Assembly: GCF_018614525.1 (NCBI RefSeq)
Contig: NZ_JAGGOL010000013.1
Span: 1-64,000 of the forward strand
Direction: 5' to 3'
Source of the DNA: Streptomyces sp. ISL-11
GTDB lineage: Bacteria; Actinomycetota; Actinomycetes; Streptomycetales; Streptomycetaceae
DNA: 64,000 nucleotides
The notes under the pieces: generated by a model
Seen by the model: only the letters and a program-made list of their open reading frames with translations
Told to the model about the DNA's origin: nothing
Database searches by the model: none
Made by a program: the position numbers and the translations under genes
Part shown: one piece after another, positions 1 to 14,236 of the stretch
How positions within the stretch are numbered: position 1 is the first letter of the stretch
Layout of the letters: each line of letters opens with the position of its first letter

Positions 1-1200
1 CTCAGCCCGGACCGGGCCCACGCGGGCGGCCTGGCCGCGCTGCGGGCCGCCGGCGGGCGCATCGCCTCGGCGGAGGCCGGCGACCGGACCGTACGCGGCG
101 CCGCCCTGGTCGTCGACGGCATCGTCGGCATCGGCGGCAAGGGCGGCCTGCGCCCGGACGCGGAGGCGCTGGTGAAGGCCGCGAGGTCCGGGCGGGCCCT
201 GATCGTCTCCGTGGACCTGCCCAGCGGCGTCGACGCGAACAGCGGCGAGGTGCGGGGGACGGCGGTGCGGGCGGACGCGACGGTCACCTTCGGCGCGTAC
301 AAACCCGGCCTGCTCATCGACCCGGCGCGCGAGCACACGGGCGCGCTGCGCCTGATCGACATCGGGCTGGAGCCCTTCCTGCCGCGCCGCCCCGACGCGG
401 AGGCGCTCCAGCACGCGGACGTCGGCGCGCTGCTGCCGCGGCCGCAGGCGGAGAGCGACAAGTACCGGCGCGGTGTGGTGGGCGTGGTGGCCGGTTCGGC
501 CCGCTACCCCGGCGCGGCGCTCCTGGCCGTGGCGGGCGCCCTGCACGGCGGCGCGGGCGCGGTCCGCTACGCCGGCCCCGCGGCGGACGCGGTCGTCTCC
601 CGCTTCCCCGAGACCCTGGTCACCACGGGCCCGCCGGCGAAGGCCGGGCGGGTACAGGCGTGGGTCGTGGGCCCGGGCGTCGGCGACGACGCGGCGGCCC
701 GGCGGGCCCTGGACGACGTCCTGGCCTCCGACGTACCGGTCCTGGTCGACGCGGACGGCCTGCGCCTGCTGACGGCCGAGACGCTACGGGCCCGCGACGC
801 CGAGACCGTCCTGACCCCGCACGCCGGCGAGGCCGCCGCACTGCTGGGTGCCTCCCGCGCCCACGTGGAGGCGACCCGCCTGACATCGGCGCGCGAACTG
901 GCGGAACGGTACGGCGTGACGGCCCTGCTGAAGGGCTCCACGACGGTCGTCGCCTCCGGCCACCGCGCGGTGCGCGTCAACCCGACGGGAACACCGTGGC
1001 TGGCGACGGCGGGCAGCGGCGACGTCCTGTCGGGCCTGACGGGCTCACTGCTGGCAGCGGGCCTGACGGGCCGCGACGCGGCATCGGTGGGCGCGTACCT
1101 GCACGGCCTGGCGGCCCGGTCCCTGGGAGCGGCACCCCTGACGGCGATGGGGGTGGCGGATGCGCTGCGGGGGGTCTGGGGGGAGGTGGGGGCCAGGTGA
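1..1200 (+). CDS. nnr: Bifunctional NAD(P)H-hydrate epimerase/dehydratase, 5' end missing
   Basis: This enzyme repairs hydrated NAD(P)H: an N-terminal epimerase interconverts the hydrate epimers and a C-terminal ADP-dependent dehydratase restores NAD(P)H. The frame is open from base 1, so the gene enters from the left; an internal GTG at 172 is not the start. The end of the epimerase domain is seen as DGIVGIGGKGGLRP and VSVDLPSGVDANSGEV. The dehydratase domain follows from about base 475 (GVVGVVAGSARYPGAALLAV) and carries the ribokinase-like ATP/ADP loop TAGSGDVLSGLTGSL near base 1005. The enzyme is cytosolic. In actinobacteria this gene usually lies beside acpS on the same strand; here it is 12.7 kb from acpS and on the opposite strand. 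Confidence 0.95.
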   Translation, partial: LSPDRAHAGGLAALRAAGGRIASAEAGDRTVRGAALVVDGIVGIGGKGGLRPDAEALVKAARSGRALIVSVDLPSGVDANSGEVRGTAVRADATVTFGAYKPGLLIDPAREHTGALRLIDIGLEPFLPRRPDAEALQHADVGALLPRPQAESDKYRRGVVGVVAGSARYPGAALLAVAGALHGGAGAVRYAGPAADAVVSRFPETLVTTGPPAKAGRVQAWVVGPGVGDDAAARRALDDVLASDVPVLVDADGLRLLTAETLRARDAETVLTPHAGEAAALLGASRAHVEATRLTSARELAERYGVTALLKGSTTVVASGHRAVRVNPTGTPWLATAGSGDVLSGLTGSLLAAGLTGRDAASVGAYLHGLAARSLGAAPLTAMGVADALRGVWGEVGAR

Positions 1201-1433: not shown

Positions 1434-2291
1434 TCAGCCTGCCTTGCCCTGCTCGTAGGCGGCGACCTTCATCCGGGCGAGGTCGAGGAGCTCGCTGTCC
1501 ATCGCCGTGAGCTCGGCTTCCCCTGTCGTGCGGCCGTCCGCCCATTCGGCGTTGGCGAACACGACCGACCGTACGGTCATGACGCGCCGGAGCACCCCGG
1601 CCCCGCCCGGCCGCAGCGGGGGAAGGTCCGAGCCGGGCGGCGGGTCCAGGGAGACGACCTGGTACCGGACCGGCGACATCGTCGCCATACCCATCACCGT
1701 GGCCGCGTCCTCGACCTTCCGGAAGCTCATGACGGTGACACTGATCCTGGCCTTCTTCGCGGAGTCCACGTAGAGCGCCGCCGTGGAACGCAGGCAGCCC
1801 CGCGACTGGTCGAGCAGCGCGGCGAGCTCCTCGCTGACGACGCGCGAGCAGTCCGTCGTGGTGGCCGTGTCCACCCGGCGGTACTCCTGGCCGGAGCGGC
1901 CCTTCACCACAGCGTCGGGGAACGCTCGTTCTCCTGTAATCACCGGGCGGGCGAGCAGCGAGGGGAGCGCGGCCGGGGCGTCCGGCGGGAGGGAGGCGGT
2001 GATGGCGGGGGCCGCGTCGCTCGGGTGGGCGGCGGCGGGGGCCGCGTCCTTGGCGTCCTTGGCCTGGTCCCTGTCGTGGGCCTTGCCGCCGATCGGCAGG
2101 AGGACGAGCACGGCGGTCACGGCGGCGGCCAGGGCGGGGACGGCTATGGCTGTGCGCAGGTAGTTCTTGCGGTTGGCCGACGGCTGAACCTGACGGGGCT
2201 CCGGCGCGGCAGCGGGCTGCGGAGTGTTGTCGCGGACGAACCGCTCCCAGACGTCGTCGGGGACGGCAGGGCGTTCGGGCTGCTCAGGCAT
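1434..2291 (-). CDS. Membrane-anchored protein with extracytoplasmic domain
   Basis: This is a 285-aa protein with a Pro-rich cytoplasmic N-terminus (about 45 residues), one transmembrane helix at about 46-67 (TAIAVPALAAAVTAVLVLLP) and an external domain of about 200 residues. The start is the ATG at 2291 (MPEQPERPAV); longer versions of the frame run into the neighbouring gene. The external domain has the pattern TATTTDCS...RGCL...YV followed by a V-rich strand and an Ala-rich helix. The same pattern occurs in the protein at 23756-24697, so the two look paralogous. It lies 71 bp downstream of the protease-NACHT gene on the same strand and could be co-transcribed with it. Function unknown; an anchored sensor or binding domain is an inference. 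Confidence 0.8.
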   Translation of the reverse strand: MPEQPERPAVPDDVWERFVRDNTPQPAAAPEPRQVQPSANRKNYLRTAIAVPALAAAVTAVLVLLPIGGKAHDRDQAKDAKDAAPAAAHPSDAAPAITASLPPDAPAALPSLLARPVITGERAFPDAVVKGRSGQEYRRVDTATTTDCSRVVSEELAALLDQSRGCLRSTAALYVDSAKKARISVTVMSFRKVEDAATVMGMATMSPVRYQVVSLDPPPGSDLPPLRPGGAGVLRRVMTVRSVVFANAEWADGRTTGEAELTAMDSELLDLARMKVAAYEQGKAG

Positions 2292-2362: not shown

Positions 2363-5300
2363 TTATGCATCCGGGGGGCGGATGGTCAGGTGGGTGCCCT
2401 CGGGGAGCGCTTCGCCGTGCAGGACCGGGCCGGCGTGGACGACATCGATTCTGATCGGCCCGAGGGGGCGCAAGTGCGCCAGGTCCAGAGGTTCCGTCAG
2501 CTCGGTATGGCCGGCGAAAAGGAACTCCCGGAGGCCGGGATAGACCTTCGGCACGTACGGCAGTCCGTCGAGATTCGCCGGCCTGCTCAGCATCAGCCGC
2601 TCCACCCGGGGCATCGGCCGCGCGAATTTCAGCGCCGCGAGGTTCTCCATGCGGGTGGCCAGTTCTCTGAGCCGGGGAACGGTCTCCAGGGCGAGGTCCC
2701 GGAAATCGAAGCCGAGGCAGTTGAGATAGACGCTTTCGAGGCACGGGTGATGGTTCATCCTCGGAAGCCAACGGGCGTTCAGATCGCCGCCCAGGTTCAG
2801 ATGGGTGATCCCCTGCGGCAACGGCACCTCCCACGGCCGGTCGACCGAGGTGATGAGCAGCGCCTTCAGTGCGGGCGTGTCCAGATCCGCCAGATCACCC
2901 GCCTCGAACGCGCCCTGAATCCGCACCCGCGGCCGCCCGCCCATCTCCTTGAGCGCGGTGACGTGCTCCCGTGACTTCAGTACGAAGTCCAGCGTCCCCT
3001 CCCCCACGTCCTCGTAGGCAAGCCGGCCGATCACCGCCTCCGCGTACCGCTTCGTATCGAACCGGTCCCACGCCCACGCCAGCTGCGCCCGCACCCGCAG
3101 GGAGGGATGGGCGACGTACCGCGACAGCAGCGGGATCGCCTTCTCGTCCGCCACCGTCGTCGCCGCGACGACCACCGCGTGCGCCACCTCCTCCGGCAGC
3201 CCCTCCGGGCCCGGGAGCAGGTCCAGGACCACGTGGCCCGCCGCCGCCAGCTCCTTCGCCGCTTCGAGGTCGCGCGGCGGTACGAGTTCGCCCGCGGCCT
3301 TCTCGACCCGGGTGCGTACCTCCCAGTCGACCTCCGTGGCGTGTTCGAGGCAGGCCGCGGCCAGCAGGTGCAGGCGGGCCCGGTGGGTCTCCTCCCGGTC
3401 GCCGCGCGCCAGCAGCAGGCGCAGCAGTTCCGCGCGGGCCCGCGGCGGGGCGTGGCCGACCGCCATGCGCAGGACGTCGTCCCACTGGTCGTCATGGGCG
3501 TGGGCGACCAGGACGTCGAAGTCCCAGTCCTCCACGGCGGCCTGTGCGCCCAGGTAGTCCTGGAAGGTGCGGTGGATGAAATCGAGGGTCTCGCTGGTCG
3601 GCCGGCGCAGCAGGCCGCTGCGCAGGACGAGGTGGCGGAGGATCTCCTCCGCGCTGCCGCGCGCCGCGACGGACGGCATGGCGGGCAGGGCCCGTTCGAG
3701 GATCTCGACGGCCTTGTGCCACTCGATCACGGAGCGGCCGTTGCGGATCAGCCAGTAGGCGATCTTCTGCAACAACGCGATCTGCTGGGCCTGTTCGAGC
3801 TCCGGCCCGTCCTGGCCCATGACGATCTCGCGCTCGCGGTCACGTCGTACGAGCAGCAGTTCGAGCGCGGCGCGGTAGAGCTCCATCCGCCCGTGCGGCA
3901 GGTAGCCGTGCCGGGAGCGGTTGAGGGCGCAGATCAGCGCGCACATCAGCGGGTTGGTGGCCAGCATGCCGAGGTCGCGCTTGGTGACGACGGCGGTGGT
4001 GAGGGAGTCGCGGAAGGCGCGCAGCCGCTCGTTCTCGCGCTGCCCGGCCGCCGTGTGCCAGCGGTCGATGAAGGCCGTGACGTCACCGCGGCTCATGGGG
4101 AGCAGTTCCAGCTCGGTGAAGTCGGAGTCGGCCAGCCAGCCCTCCCGTACGGCGGAGGGGCGGGTGGTGATGACGTACCGGGCCTCCGGATAGGCGGCGA
4201 GCAGGTCCTTGACCCAGGTCAGGGTCCGGCGCCGGTCGGCCTCGGGAACCTCGTCCACACCGTCGATCAGCAGCAGCGCCGTGCCCTCGGTCAGCCTGCG
4301 GGTGGCCCAGCCCTGGGCGGCGGGCAGGCCGGAGAGCGGGCCCGCGGCGGCGGCCAGGAATTCCTCCGGCTGCGGGAGCTCACCCCGCCGGATGAGCGTC
4401 CGCAACGGCAGCGTCAGCGGCATGCAGCCGCTCAGGTGGCCGAGGCCGGGCGGCAGGTCGCCGCGCGCGGTGATCGTGGCGAGCCATTGCAGCAGCGTGG
4501 TCTTGCCCGAGCCGGCCGCCCCGCGCAGCAGGACGCGGCGCTGCCCGGCGAGTGCCTCCTCCGCGCGCTTCGGTGACGCCACGGAGCCGCCGGACCCCTC
4601 GCCGGAAGGGAGCCCGAAGGTGTCCGCGGACATCCGCCGCGCGGCCTCCGCGCCGGTCAGCTCCAGGCTGAGGTAGGCGGCGTCGAGCGGCCAGGTCTCG
4701 CCCTCGCCGTCGGAGAGCGTCAGGCCGATGATCGTCAGTTCGCCGGACTTCTCGACGATGTAGTCGCGCAGCCTGCGCTCGAACGCCTCGATCTCCAGCT
4801 GCCGGGGCGAGGCGAGCGACCGGGACTCCGGTTTGTGGCCCGCCAGCAGGCAGTCGCTGAGGAAGGTGAAGTCCGACCAGAGCGTCGCCGAGGGCGTCAC
4901 CGTGAGCCGCCCGTGCCGCCACCCGTTCGGGTCGGCACAGACCACGCCCGCGAGGAGACCGTCCACGAAGACGGCCGCACCGGACATGCCCGCCCACGGC
5001 GAGCCCCCGCCGGAAGGCGGTGCGGGCGCGCCGCAGTCGCTGTCGAGGACGTGCCGGCCGCTGAGCAGATTGCTGCCCGGCTTGAGGGAGCCCGTCACCT
5101 GCTCGGTGTCGAGCTCGCCGGCGGCGTCGCGCTGGACGTGCGGGTAGCCGATGGCCTGCGCGCCGGGCCAGACCCGCAGGTCGTACGCGCGGCCCCAGAC
5201 CACCGGCTCGAAGGCGGCCGCCGTCTCCTCGTCGACGAGGTCCCGCTCGGCGACGAGCAGCGCCGCGTCGCACCGCCGGTTGTCGTCCCGCGCCCACACC

Positions 5301-5464
5301 ACCCGGCAGCGCACCTGCCCGACGCCACCTGGCACGATCACCCGGGGGGTGTCGCAGTCGCCGATCACGTGCGCGGCGGTCAGAACGAGATTCGGTGCGA
5401 GGAGGTAGCCGCTTCCCTGACTCCGCCCGAATACGGCCGCAATGCGTTCCTTAGCCGGGTGCAC
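2363..5464 (-). CDS. Trypsin-like protease / NACHT STAND NTPase with LRR-like C-terminus
   Basis: About 1033 aa. Residues 1-200 form a trypsin-like serine protease domain with a complete triad: His in VLTAAHV (near 32), Asp in RRCDAALLV (near 66) and Ser in GMSGAAVF (near 160). A NACHT-type NTPase follows, with Walker A LLRGAAGSGKTTLL (near 318), Walker B ALLLIDGVDEVPE (near 398) and a sensor-like ARYVITTRPSAV. A helical region comes next, then a leucine-rich, LRR-like C-terminus from about 880. STAND NTPases of this plan are signal-activated switches, and several bacterial NACHT proteins are anti-phage defence proteins; the role here is inference. I chose the GTG at 5464 because it follows GAAGGGGG and starts 31 residues before the catalytic His. 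The frame also allows an ATG at 5686, but the added 74 residues are low complexity. Confidence 0.85.
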   Translation of the reverse strand: MHPAKERIAAVFGRSQGSGYLLAPNLVLTAAHVIGDCDTPRVIVPGGVGQVRCRVVWARDDNRRCDAALLVAERDLVDEETAAAFEPVVWGRAYDLRVWPGAQAIGYPHVQRDAAGELDTEQVTGSLKPGSNLLSGRHVLDSDCGAPAPPSGGGSPWAGMSGAAVFVDGLLAGVVCADPNGWRHGRLTVTPSATLWSDFTFLSDCLLAGHKPESRSLASPRQLEIEAFERRLRDYIVEKSGELTIIGLTLSDGEGETWPLDAAYLSLELTGAEAARRMSADTFGLPSGEGSGGSVASPKRAEEALAGQRRVLLRGAAGSGKTTLLQWLATITARGDLPPGLGHLSGCMPLTLPLRTLIRRGELPQPEEFLAAAAGPLSGLPAAQGWATRRLTEGTALLLIDGVDEVPEADRRRTLTWVKDLLAAYPEARYVITTRPSAVREGWLADSDFTELELLPMSRGDVTAFIDRWHTAAGQRENERLRAFRDSLTTAVVTKRDLGMLATNPLMCALICALNRSRHGYLPHGRMELYRAALELLLVRRDREREIVMGQDGPELEQAQQIALLQKIAYWLIRNGRSVIEWHKAVEILERALPAMPSVAARGSAEEILRHLVLRSGLLRRPTSETLDFIHRTFQDYLGAQAAVEDWDFDVLVAHAHDDQWDDVLRMAVGHAPPRARAELLRLLLARGDREETHRARLHLLAAACLEHATEVDWEVRTRVEKAAGELVPPRDLEAAKELAAAGHVVLDLLPGPEGLPEEVAHAVVVAATTVADEKAIPLLSRYVAHPSLRVRAQLAWAWDRFDTKRYAEAVIGRLAYEDVGEGTLDFVLKSREHVTALKEMGGRPRVRIQGAFEAGDLADLDTPALKALLITSVDRPWEVPLPQGITHLNLGGDLNARWLPRMNHHPCLESVYLNCLGFDFRDLALETVPRLRELATRMENLAALKFARPMPRVERLMLSRPANLDGLPYVPKVYPGLREFLFAGHTELTEPLDLAHLRPLGPIRIDVVHAGPVLHGEALPEGTHLTIRPPDA

Positions 5465-5886: not shown

Positions 5887-7287
5887 GTGCGAATGACTGA
5901 CATCCAGCGTTGCGAGGTCCGGCCCGGCCGTCTCGTGGAATGGACGCTGCATCCGGCGACCGTCGAGGCGGCGACCGGTCTGCCGGAGGATCCCCGGCCG
6001 CCCGCGTACGTACAGGAGGCCCACATCCGAACGGCTCGTTCGGTACGCGAGGACGGTCTGTCCGTACCGACCTGGACCGGCACGGCGTTCGACATCCCGG
6101 GGCAGGTCGATCTCGATGCCCTCCAGGGCGCGCTGCACGCCTGGACGCTCCGGCACGAGACGCTGCGCAGCGGCTTCCGCTGGGTCGGCGACGAGATGCG
6201 GCGCTTCACGCTGGACGCCGACGCCGTCGCGCTGCACCGCGAGGACGTGGGCGAATTCTCCGACGCGGCGGTGCTCACCCGGTACTTGCAGGACCGCTTC
6301 GACGTCGCGGCGGACGCGCTCACCTGGCCGAACTTCGTCTTCAGCGCGGTCGTCAGGGCGGACGGCGCGAGTGTCTACATGGTCTTCGACCACAGCAATG
6401 TCGACGCGTACTCGCTCTACCGCATCGCCGCCGAGATCCACGGACTCTACGCGTCCGCCCTCGAAGGCCGTGCCGTGGAGGCGCCGCCGGTCGCCAGCTA
6501 CGTCGACTTCTGTGCGATCGAGCGCACGAACGCCGATCAGATCGACGACACGCACGCGATCGTCGGGCGCTGGCGGGAGTTCGTCACCCGCTGCGACGGA
6601 AAGCTGCCGAACTTCCCCGTCGATCTGGGCCTCGACCCCGAAGCGCCGCTGCCCACGCAGAAGTTCATGCGGGAGATGCTCGTGGACGACACGGACGCGG
6701 CAGCCTTCGAGGCGCACTGCCGCCCGTACGGCGGGAGCCTGATCGGCGTCCTCGCGGCCACCGCCCTCATCGTCCGCGAGATCGGCGGGCAGCGGGTGTA
6801 CCGCACCGTCGTGCCGTTCCACACCCGGGTGAAGTCCCAGTGGTCGGACTCGGTGGGCTGGTACGTGGGCGGCGCGCCGATCGAGATCCCGGTGGACCGG
6901 GCGACGGACTTCGACAGTGCGCTGGAACTGGTCCGTGCCGCCGTGCGGAAGAACAAGCCGCTGTCACGGATGCCCATCGCCCGGGTCCTGCGCCTGCTGG
7001 GCTCCGACTTCCGGCCCACGTCCCCGGACCTGTACTCGATCGTCTCGTTCATCGACGCGCGAGACGTCCCCGGATCGGAGCGGTGGCAGGACCTGAAGGC
7101 GTACGCGCTGATCCGGGTCTCCTACGGCGACCAGGTGTGCGCGTGGGTCACCCGGCTCCCCGACGGCCTGCAGTTCGCCGCCCGCTATCCGGACACCGAG
7201 GCCGCGTACAAGAACATGCGGCTGTACGTCGAGCATCTGCGGGAACTCATCGTCTCGGTGACGCGCGGCGCGGCCGTGCGCGCGTAG
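5887..7287 (+). CDS. Stand-alone condensation-domain protein (NRPS C / acyltransferase type)
   Basis: A 466-aa protein of the chloramphenicol-acetyltransferase-like condensation fold used in non-ribosomal peptide synthesis and by PapA-type acyltransferases. The catalytic HxxxD motif is intact as VFDHSNVDAYS (His near residue 169). TLRHETLRSGF near the N-terminus and VGWYVGGAPIEIPV in the C-lobe fit the fold. No adenylation or carrier domain is fused or adjacent, so it would act in trans, joining an acyl or aminoacyl donor to an acceptor. The GTG at 5887 is 7 nt after GGAGA; the ATG at 5893 is the alternative. It is followed 129 bp later by a small ABM-like gene, which could be a partner. Substrates cannot be read from the sequence. 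Confidence 0.8.
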   Translation: MRMTDIQRCEVRPGRLVEWTLHPATVEAATGLPEDPRPPAYVQEAHIRTARSVREDGLSVPTWTGTAFDIPGQVDLDALQGALHAWTLRHETLRSGFRWVGDEMRRFTLDADAVALHREDVGEFSDAAVLTRYLQDRFDVAADALTWPNFVFSAVVRADGASVYMVFDHSNVDAYSLYRIAAEIHGLYASALEGRAVEAPPVASYVDFCAIERTNADQIDDTHAIVGRWREFVTRCDGKLPNFPVDLGLDPEAPLPTQKFMREMLVDDTDAAAFEAHCRPYGGSLIGVLAATALIVREIGGQRVYRTVVPFHTRVKSQWSDSVGWYVGGAPIEIPVDRATDFDSALELVRAAVRKNKPLSRMPIARVLRLLGSDFRPTSPDLYSIVSFIDARDVPGSERWQDLKAYALIRVSYGDQVCAWVTRLPDGLQFAARYPDTEAAYKNMRLYVEHLRELIVSVTRGAAVRA

Positions 7288-7416
7288 TCACGGACGTTTC
7301 CGAAAGGTCTCTCCTGCTGTCGCGCCCGTCACCCGTGCGGCCGGTGCCCCCGTGCGGAAGGCACCGACCGCTGATCGACTGGGTGGACACCGATGCCCAC
7401 CGCGGACGGAGCTGCT

Positions 7417-7713
7417 ATGGCGATCATCGTCGAGCTGAACATGACCGGAGCCACTCAGGCCCAGTACGAGCAGGTCGCGAACAAGGTGAGCAACGGGCGT
7501 GGCCTGGTCAAGAACCGCTCGGACTGGCCAGTGCCTGGTGTCATCGCACACGTTGCCGGACAGGGAGAGAACGGCTGGTTCGTCGTGGATGTCTGGGAGT
7601 CCGAGGAAGCATGGCAGCGATTCGCGGAAATCATGCTCCCGTACGCCCAAGAGGCCGGAATTCCGGAGTTCACGCCCAGGGTGTACCCGGCCTTCAATGT
7701 CGTGACCGAGTAG
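7417..7713 (+). CDS. ABM-like dimeric alpha/beta-barrel protein
   Basis: A 98-aa protein resembling the small ferredoxin-like dimeric barrels (antibiotic biosynthesis monooxygenase type). It starts MAIIVELNMTGATQAQYEQV, has VIAHVAGQGENGWFVVDVWE in the middle and ends PEFTPRVYPAF. The ATG at 7417 lies 5 nt after CGGAG; an in-frame ATG at 7393 has no such site. Members include cofactor-free monooxygenases, but also stress and heme proteins, so the activity is uncertain. It is co-oriented with the condensation gene, which suggests a shared small pathway. No TTA codon was seen. Confidence 0.75.
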   Translation: MAIIVELNMTGATQAQYEQVANKVSNGRGLVKNRSDWPVPGVIAHVAGQGENGWFVVDVWESEEAWQRFAEIMLPYAQEAGIPEFTPRVYPAFNVVTE

Positions 7714-13867: not shown

Positions 13868-14232
13868 CTACTTCTCCGCGATCACCACCGCGGACGCGAC
13901 CCCCGCGTCATGGCTCAGCGAGATGTGCCACGACGTCACCCCCAGCGCCTCCGCGCGAGCGGCCACCGTGCCGGTGACCACCAGCCGCGGCTGGCCGCTG
14001 TCCTCCGTCGTGACCTCCGCGTCCGTCCACAGCAAGCCGGCCGGTGCCCCCAGGGCCTTGGCGAGAGCCTCCTTCGCGGCGAAGCGGGCCGCCAGGGACG
14101 CGATCCCGCGCCGCTCGCCGTTCGGCAAATACAGCTCGCGCGAGACGAACAAGCGGTCCGCCATGCCCGGCGTCCGCCGAAGCGCCGCGTCGAAACGGTC
14201 GATCTCGGCCACGTCGATACCCACTCCGACGA

Positions 14233-14236
<4 letters not shown>
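13868..14236 (-). CDS. acpS: Holo-[acyl-carrier-protein] synthase
   Basis: A 122-aa phosphopantetheinyl transferase that moves 4'-phosphopantetheine from CoA to the Ser of acyl carrier proteins. [15 protein letters not shown] has the Mg-binding Asp8, and [12 protein letters not shown] has the catalytic Glu near 56. HISLSHDAG and VVIAEK complete the fold. The ATG at 14236 overlaps the glmS stop (TGA at 14235-14233), so it is translationally coupled to glmS. It links cytosolic CoA supply (coaA nearby) to fatty acid and polyketide synthesis. nnr, normally its downstream neighbour, is not here. Confidence 0.96.

Follow-up and report, generated by a model that had tools for sequence, protein, structure and literature searches.

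A trypsin-NACHT-LRR protein of Streptomyces as a candidate one-protein NLR-type switch

Introduction

Many of the proven effectors of bacterial NACHT proteins and of Avs are nucleases or NAD-consuming enzymes, and animal nucleotide-binding leucine-rich-repeat receptors (NLRs) recruit caspases through CARD or PYD domains. Here we describe a gene of Streptomyces sp. ISL-11 predicted to join a trypsin-like protease, a NACHT NTPase and a leucine-rich repeat (LRR) region in a single chain. It occupies positions 2363-5464 of a 64-kb stretch, hereafter the window, which is the first 64 kb of the 85-kb contig NZ_JAGGOL010000013.1 in a Streptomyces genome of 6.67 Mb. We regard it as fairly probable that the gene encodes a one-protein NLR-type switch of the STAND class (signal transduction ATPases with numerous domains), with an invader product as its most likely trigger and defence as its likeliest use, the latter being favoured because of the evolution of its sensor, the different effectors of its relatives and the turnover of the loci concerned.

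The closest described systems resemble this protein in different ways. Bacterial NACHT (bNACHT) proteins such as bNACHT25, whose antiphage activity has been proven experimentally, share with it an N-terminal effector, a central NACHT module and a C-terminal sensor, with the difference that bNACHT25 and bNACHT32 combine a PD-(D/E)XK nuclease with an NCH1 C-terminus whereas the window protein combines a trypsin-like protease with LRRs (PMC12169576). In the trypsin-bearing VMAP-MoxR-vWA ternary conflict systems (Trypco1/Trypco2), a Trypco2 gene goes along with a trypsin-like effector (Kaur et al. 2020, PMC7159879), and Trypco2 likewise stands beside the trypsin-like effector in trypsin-NACHT relatives of the window gene; its partner is VMAP in the former and trypsin-NACHT-LRR in the latter, and the window copy has no Trypco2 in cis. 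The CARD-NLR systems (the Lysobacter gasdermin system and LypABC) also associate a trypsin-like protease with an NLR-like component, the CARD-bearing protease being separate from the NLR-like protein there and joined to NACHT-LRR in the window protein (PMC13236601). With Avs, the window protein shares the STAND logic. Kaur et al. 2021 (PMC8195603) already list trypsin among numerous domains that replace one another at the N-terminus of systems with a possible NACHT NTPase, so that the general idea of trypsin as an N-terminal partner of such an NTPase has been published. In the open-access literature searched, we found no description of the trypsin-NACHT-LRR and Trypco2 pairing, of the hypervariable LRR or of the polymorphic clpC site reported below.

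Domain architecture and predicted fold

The nearest named relatives by the trypsin-NACHT-LRR gene are S. triculaminicus, S. olivoverticillatus, S. klenkii, S. netropsis, S. cinnamoneus and others, which are verticillate species, and the source genome is that of a verticillate Streptomyces. Fourteen orthologues, the window gene included, were collected by similarity, so that their number is no frequency; this set holds L035 and not L083, and alignments A1 and A5 hold L083 (from Streptacidiphilus) and not L035. Loci L033 and L034, from the same genomes as L075 and L079, were dropped from trees and interval comparisons, and L085 and L095, with genes broken over several frames, were excluded from all alignments. 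The split homologue matches in L085 (S. lilacinus) and L095 reflect either pseudogenes or draft-assembly errors. The modules of the window gene are as follows.

2363..5464, minus strand: trypsin-NACHT-LRR gene, GTG start at 5464, 1033 aa plus stop (open reading frame and start kept in orthologues)
4964..5416, minus strand: Trypsin_2 domain, residues 17-167, proposed effector (Pfam, triad conserved)
5369..5371, minus strand: catalytic His32 (triad alignments)
5267..5269, minus strand: catalytic Asp66 (triad alignments)
4982..4984, minus strand: catalytic Ser161 in GMSG (triad alignments)
4049..4540, minus strand: NACHT NTPase domain, residues 309-472 (Pfam E 3.9e-24)
4499..4522, minus strand: Walker A, residues 315-322 (GAAGSGKT), intact (sequence and alignment)
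4250..4276, minus strand: Walker B, residues 397-405 (LLLIDGVDE), intact (sequence and alignment)
2915..4048, minus strand: helical post-NACHT region, residues 473-850, with a weak HEAT match inside (model; fold match to NLRC4, NOD2 and NLRP3)
2366..2914, minus strand: C-terminal LRR solenoid, residues 851-1033, proposed hypervariable sensor (model; LRR Pfam matches in relatives; divergence)

The start codon is conserved: of the 14 verticillate sequences, 12 open with VHPA(K/R)ERIAAV and two differ from it by one residue. The plus-strand reading of the same interval contains internal stops. Trypsin_2 scored 35 bits against a curated cut-off of 27.6 (E 2.9e-8), and the triad was invariant in all 14 rows of alignment A5. 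Over 34 trypsin-type rows, two genomes being counted twice, the histidine and the serine were each kept in 34/34 and the aspartate in 32/34, its position being aligned to E or to a gap in the other rows. A profile search of the PDB reached proteases of the lectin-pathway, HtrA and factor XII types only at E 0.08 or worse. The protease identity is based on the Pfam profile score and on H32/D66/S161, the models of this domain being poor. NACHT scored 85.8 bits against a curated cut-off of 26.7. The sequence-only reading of this stretch had proposed an intact trypsin-like triad, a complete NACHT with Walker A and B motifs and an effector-NTPase-sensor order, all of which stand: Trypsin_2, NACHT and LRR succeed one another, and the model of residues 221-1033 has an NLR-like fold.

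The leucine-rich C-terminus that it had also proposed is borne out by the model and by relatives. A Pfam search matched no LRR family in the window protein itself, and the HEAT_2 match at residues 758-819 was sub-threshold; LRR_4 matched 13 of 30 relatives with another N-terminus and 3 of 19 trypsin-type relatives. A profile built from 19 trypsin-type proteins matched the LRR part of an internalin (E 1e-20). In the whole-protein AlphaFold2 model (22-row alignment, mean predicted local distance difference test, pLDDT, of 72), residues 846-1029 form nine strands spaced 20-25 residues apart, the first starting at 846, which is the layout of an LRR solenoid; pLDDT averaged over 10-residue blocks of this region lay mostly between 77 and 94 and dropped to 64, 67 and 56 at its lowest points.

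A Foldseek search with model residues 221-1033 ranked NLRC4, NOD2 and NLRP3 first (best E 9.7e-17), the NACHT, post-NACHT helical and LRR modules coming in equal order and fold at a sequence identity of just 12-21% in the fold alignments; a plain phmmer search of the protein against the PDB gave nothing at E 0.1. VIA-align to NLRC4 gave Z 21.9 over 635 residues with a root mean square deviation of 20.1 Å, and the template modelling (TM) scores of the NLR matches were low (0.19-0.45). A deviation of about 20 Å together with low TM-scores implies that the modules match singly and that the angles between domains differ, so that, as modelled, residues 221-1033 share the NACHT-post-NACHT-LRR fold of NLRs module by module. 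Unlike animal NLRs with their recruited caspases, the protein has its predicted protease fused in-chain.

By domain content, the window protein is thus classed as a predicted NACHT-clade STAND protein with a bNACHT-like tripartite layout. Its best NCBIfam match is EruA (residues 391-642, 38 bits), far below the cut-off of 1000. Three other assignments were rejected. The PADLOC Avs2 match covers the P-loop only (residues 302-325, E 0.087); the trypsin domain starts at residue 17, with no space for a CARD before it, and NACHT is in-chain, unlike in CARD-NLR systems; and Pfam found no MoxR ATPase or vWA genes, as expected of a VMAP ternary system, among the nine other proteins of the interval in which the gene lies.

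Divergence of the C-terminal region among orthologues

Pairwise identity and the ratio of nonsynonymous to synonymous divergence (dN/dS) were computed over the 14 orthologues with our own Nei-Gojobori script, the C-terminal figures referring to the 36 pairs formed by the nine sequences that have this region. Median identity was highest in NACHT (0.86), followed by the post-NACHT region (0.80), trypsin (0.79) and the linker (0.71), and lowest in the C-terminus (0.36); the corresponding median dN/dS values were 0.16, 0.27, 0.24, 0.34 and 0.78. The C-terminus of the window protein finds its best match in 199 Streptomyces genomes at 41%, in an orthologue, the best over all orthologues being 42%. 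Two length classes of the LRR occur, of 181-183 aa (three orthologues) and 258-261 aa (six).

The closest pair, L084/L073, 94% identical outside the LRR, has a dS of 0.18-0.34 in all modules, highest in the C-terminus, with a dN of 0.011 in NACHT versus 0.233 in the C-terminus; low dS and high C-terminal dN indicate that the C-terminal excess is mainly amino-acid change and not the import of an old allele. Within the LRR strands, the window residue is kept in 17% of cases at the 25 columns where it is not L, I, V or F versus 46% at the 18 columns where it is, and where the window has leucine 83% of the other sequences are hydrophobic. This pattern suggests that the LRR scaffold is retained while the exposed surface changes, as expected of a recognition surface.

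Effector domains of relatives and the Trypco2 partner

NACHT-core homologues are abundant in the order, with some match in 69 of 100 sampled relatives, many of these being only weak NACHT or trypsin matches. Trypsin_2 was present in 19/19 trypsin-type rows scanned. Among 30 relatives with a non-trypsin N-terminus, Pfam placed NNH1 at the effector position in 29 and a helix-turn-helix (HTH) in one; the latter, L055, was identified by its sequence and carries the HTH on the same NACHT chassis. Repeated domain swapping within a chain is not claimed: the NACHT-core tree, from which 8 rows close to others were dropped, needs two changes, and a single origin of trypsin-NACHT was not rejected (approximately unbiased test, p 0.387).

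In 16 of the 18 trypsin-NACHT loci from other clades than the verticillate one, the trypsin-NACHT gene adjoins a small co-directional gene, which lies just upstream in 15 of them (5-83 bp separating the aligned ends) and overlaps it downstream in one. One of these small genes was assigned to Trypco2 (PF19631, E 3e-29) and Pfam found Trypco2 in three further neighbours of the 126 scanned; the remaining partner genes are called Trypco2 by similarity to these. Loci with only NNH1- or HTH-type genes had a Trypco2 in 1 of 28 cases (Fisher p 2.5e-9 versus trypsin-type loci).

The clpC-side and acpS-nnrE sites

The window gene is placed between two core genes that we take, from their sequence, to be acpS and nnrE/nnrD, and its genome carries a paralogue at a second site, for which the names clpC, two-component pair and mutY are likewise our assignments from sequence.

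1..1200, plus strand: nnrE/nnrD core gene, left border of the interval (open reading frame cut by the contig end; orthologues longer)
13868..14236, minus strand: acpS core gene, right border of the interval (open reading frame and orthologous intervals)
G000:C67 11530-14082: clpC-site paralogue, L037

The paralogue adjoins clpC, and the opposite border of its interval is the two-component pair with mutY. Both acpS-site and clpC-site copies are present in four genomes (G000, G018, G051 and G060). The clpC site was surveyed in 58 Streptomyces genomes, drawn from 60 with a clpC match among 61 searched (G008 and G050 left out; 18 of the intervals among L037-L071 and 40 among L097-L136). It held trypsin-NACHT with Trypco2 in 11, NNH1-NACHT in 20, both in 1, a pair of NNH1 genes plus an orphan Trypco2 in 1 and a NACHT remnant in 2, ran off the contig end in 2, and held no gene of the trypsin/NNH1-NACHT family in 21, such an empty site being one where tblastn gave no match to the family's trypsin, NNH1, NACHT or Trypco2 queries, so that other genes or NACHT types are possible there. 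In G057, one of the 11 trypsin-type sites, the NACHT match is split in two pieces, perhaps marking a decaying copy.

Scored on a clpC tree for 52 genomes, the state of the site (trypsin, NNH1 or empty) requires 17 or more changes, and trypsin versus NNH1 alone 4 or more; the tree was built rapidly and many of its branches are weak, and recombination of clpC itself is possible. Shuffled states gave values as low in 154 of 500 trials for empty sites (chance-like), 15 of 500 for NNH1 (somewhat clustered) and none of 500 for trypsin (clearly clustered). Exchanges at the site include whole-gene replacement, as between the sister genomes G041 and G025 (support 88), whose NACHT cores group in separate places on the NACHT trees. 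The clpC-side site is a conserved chromosomal hotspot of NLR genes in Streptomyces, holding alternative NACHT genes, both of them, remnants or none.

At the acpS-nnrE site, none of 20 other Streptomyces, hand-picked from the 61 genomes outside the four known carriers, had a gene of the trypsin/NNH1-NACHT family; among them is G035, which by clpC is close to the verticillate genomes. Where a verticillate interval has both anchors (13 cases, L078 being omitted because the gene caller missed its nnrE), the NLR gene is present in all (13/13) as the sole constant resident and the remaining genes vary, in agreement with the variable accessory genes that had been noted around it. The Streptacidiphilus homologue L083 lies at the clpC site with a Trypco2 and is sister to the verticillate acpS-site group (support 100/99), from which we infer that the window copy descends from a clpC-site allele that moved and lost Trypco2. 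Related NACHT genes on 45 plasmid records, 34 of them from Streptomyces, indicate that the trypsin/NNH1-NACHT family moves, none of them covering 80% of the window protein; phage records gave no match to it at E 1e-5.

More tentatively, Streptomyces may have a chromosomal NLR locus resembling plant resistance-gene loci, in which whole alleles (protease with Trypco2, or NNH1) would interchange at the clpC site and the verticillate acpS site, the LRR surface would diversify, a protease-type executioner would be carried in-chain, and Trypco2 would serve as dedicated inhibitor, chaperone or substrate; taken as a whole, we consider this possible and somewhat doubtful. The polymorphic clpC site, with natural alleles bearing different effectors, and the acpS-site orthologues, differing mainly in the LRR, offer natural material for comparison, through which what bacterial LRR-NLRs recognise and the role of Trypco2 become addressable.

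Proposed function and alternative explanations

In the mechanism we propose, the NACHT module of the resting protein would hold ADP, with the post-NACHT and LRR region keeping the protein closed. The lock would be released when the LRR binds a trigger, most likely a product of a phage or of another invader; ATP binding would then lead to a ring-like oligomer in which the N-terminal trypsin-like domains are clustered and the protease is switched on, and cleavage of a cellular or phage protein would result in growth stop or death of the infected hypha. Formation of the oligomer, recognition of a ligand, activation of the protease, its substrate and the defence role are inferences that go beyond the computed results. 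If true, a receptor carrying its own protease would be a self-contained equivalent of an inflammasome plus caspase.

The defence switch put forward in the sequence-only reading is upheld by the architecture, the hypervariable C-terminus, the varied effectors of relatives and the patchy paralogue site, and loses the membrane partner and the defence-island setting. The following protein had been linked to it as a membrane-anchored neighbour.

1434..2291, minus strand: downstream protein with one likely membrane helix, judged by eye (no Pfam family; homologue at the same place in L082 only)

Its distance of 71 bp and its strand are correct as proposed; the functional link is not sustained, since just two of the 13 doubly anchored intervals, those of the window and of L082, hold the protein, and it probably lies outside the system. 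The survey of homologue neighbourhoods that had been suggested showed no obvious defence island. PADLOC was run on 126 of 170 neighbour proteins (20 beyond the first 150 and 24 removed by hand were left out) and, with no matched baseline, gave a few scattered matches: 37 families at E 1e-15, among the 25 listed of which PDC-S48 (two models) and an exonuclease model were found in 3 proteins each and the others, such as PD-T4-6, mad3, mad6 and MkoA, in single proteins. The neighbours are mostly metabolic or regulatory. Homologues in core loci unlinked to defence genes, combined with mutants of unchanged phage sensitivity, had been named as what would speak against the defence switch, and the first half of this pair, a core-locus setting (acpS/nnrE) and no defence-gene link, is what we found.

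These results weigh against a defence role, as do several features of the gene itself. The protease domain is poorly modelled, both alone (pLDDT 39) and within the whole protein. Five of the 14 orthologues are without the LRR, their proteins stopping just past the post-NACHT module and their loci yielding no LRR remnant, and the body of the LRR-less pair L078/L080 is still conserved (NACHT dN 0.018, dS 0.140); the LRR is thus dispensable for whatever maintains those forms, so that the C-terminus as sensor, in keeping with its hypervariable LRR surface, is an incomplete account. C-terminal dS is raised over all pairs (0.89 versus 0.55-0.63 elsewhere), so recombination or misalignment may add to the divergence signal, and a C-terminal dN/dS averaging below 1 is, in these alignments, no proof of positive selection. 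The trypsin type tracks the clpC tree beyond chance, and its turnover is therefore slower than that of empty sites. Finally, none of the 14 verticillate orthologues, window gene included, has a Trypco2 beside it.

Sensor evolution, effector variety and locus turnover would each suit self/non-self recognition too. Fungal NACHT proteins act in heterokaryon incompatibility, and an NLR-like switch for self-recognition or development would answer to an internal cue (cell wall, hyphal fusion, programmed death of the mycelium) and not to phage. The multicellularity of Streptomyces, the position of the acpS-nnrE copy at one core verticillate site, the fact that no defence island was seen around homologues, the fast-evolving recognition surface and the presence/absence polymorphism are all compatible with it. 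We nevertheless judge it unlikely, since the clpC site of relatives is without the family in 21 of 58 genomes, making an essential developmental role of the family improbable, and since the architecture is like that of inflammasome receptors and of the antiphage bNACHT proteins as presented in PMC12169576.

As in the paired sensor and helper NLRs of plants, the window protein might lack autonomy and act in trans with the clpC-site paralogue and its Trypco2, one copy sensing and the other amplifying. The only Trypco2 match of the window genome lies at this paralogue, on contig 67, so that the window gene acts without the partner or uses it in trans; the five LRR-less orthologues are still conserved, and four genomes carry both copies. 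However, 9 of the 14 orthologues retain a rapidly changing LRR, which points to recognition of their own, so that we find a helper role decidedly improbable. The core-gene neighbourhood and the conserved body would also suit a regulated housekeeping protease, that is, non-immune proteolytic signalling by an LRR-scaffolded NTPase; the changing LRR surface, the varied effector domains of relatives and the turnover of loci would be unexpected for such an enzyme, and we give this explanation very little credence.

Other genes of the interval

The window encodes a stand-alone condensation-domain protein (5893-7713, plus strand; PF00668, E 2.5e-21) followed by a 98-aa open reading frame, each found in the window's interval only (1/13). 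An antitoxin-like remnant lies at 1302-1427 on the plus strand, its last 42 residues being 74% identical to an 84-aa protein in the same interval of L075; the latter looks CopG-like, and L079 has an open reading frame of PIN-like appearance nearby. A MerR-like regulator occurs in 8 of the 13 verticillate intervals (for example at 6992-7927 in L073 and 6635-7603 in L077), the window's interval not being among them, and stands directly upstream of the trypsin-NACHT gene in several verticillate genomes.

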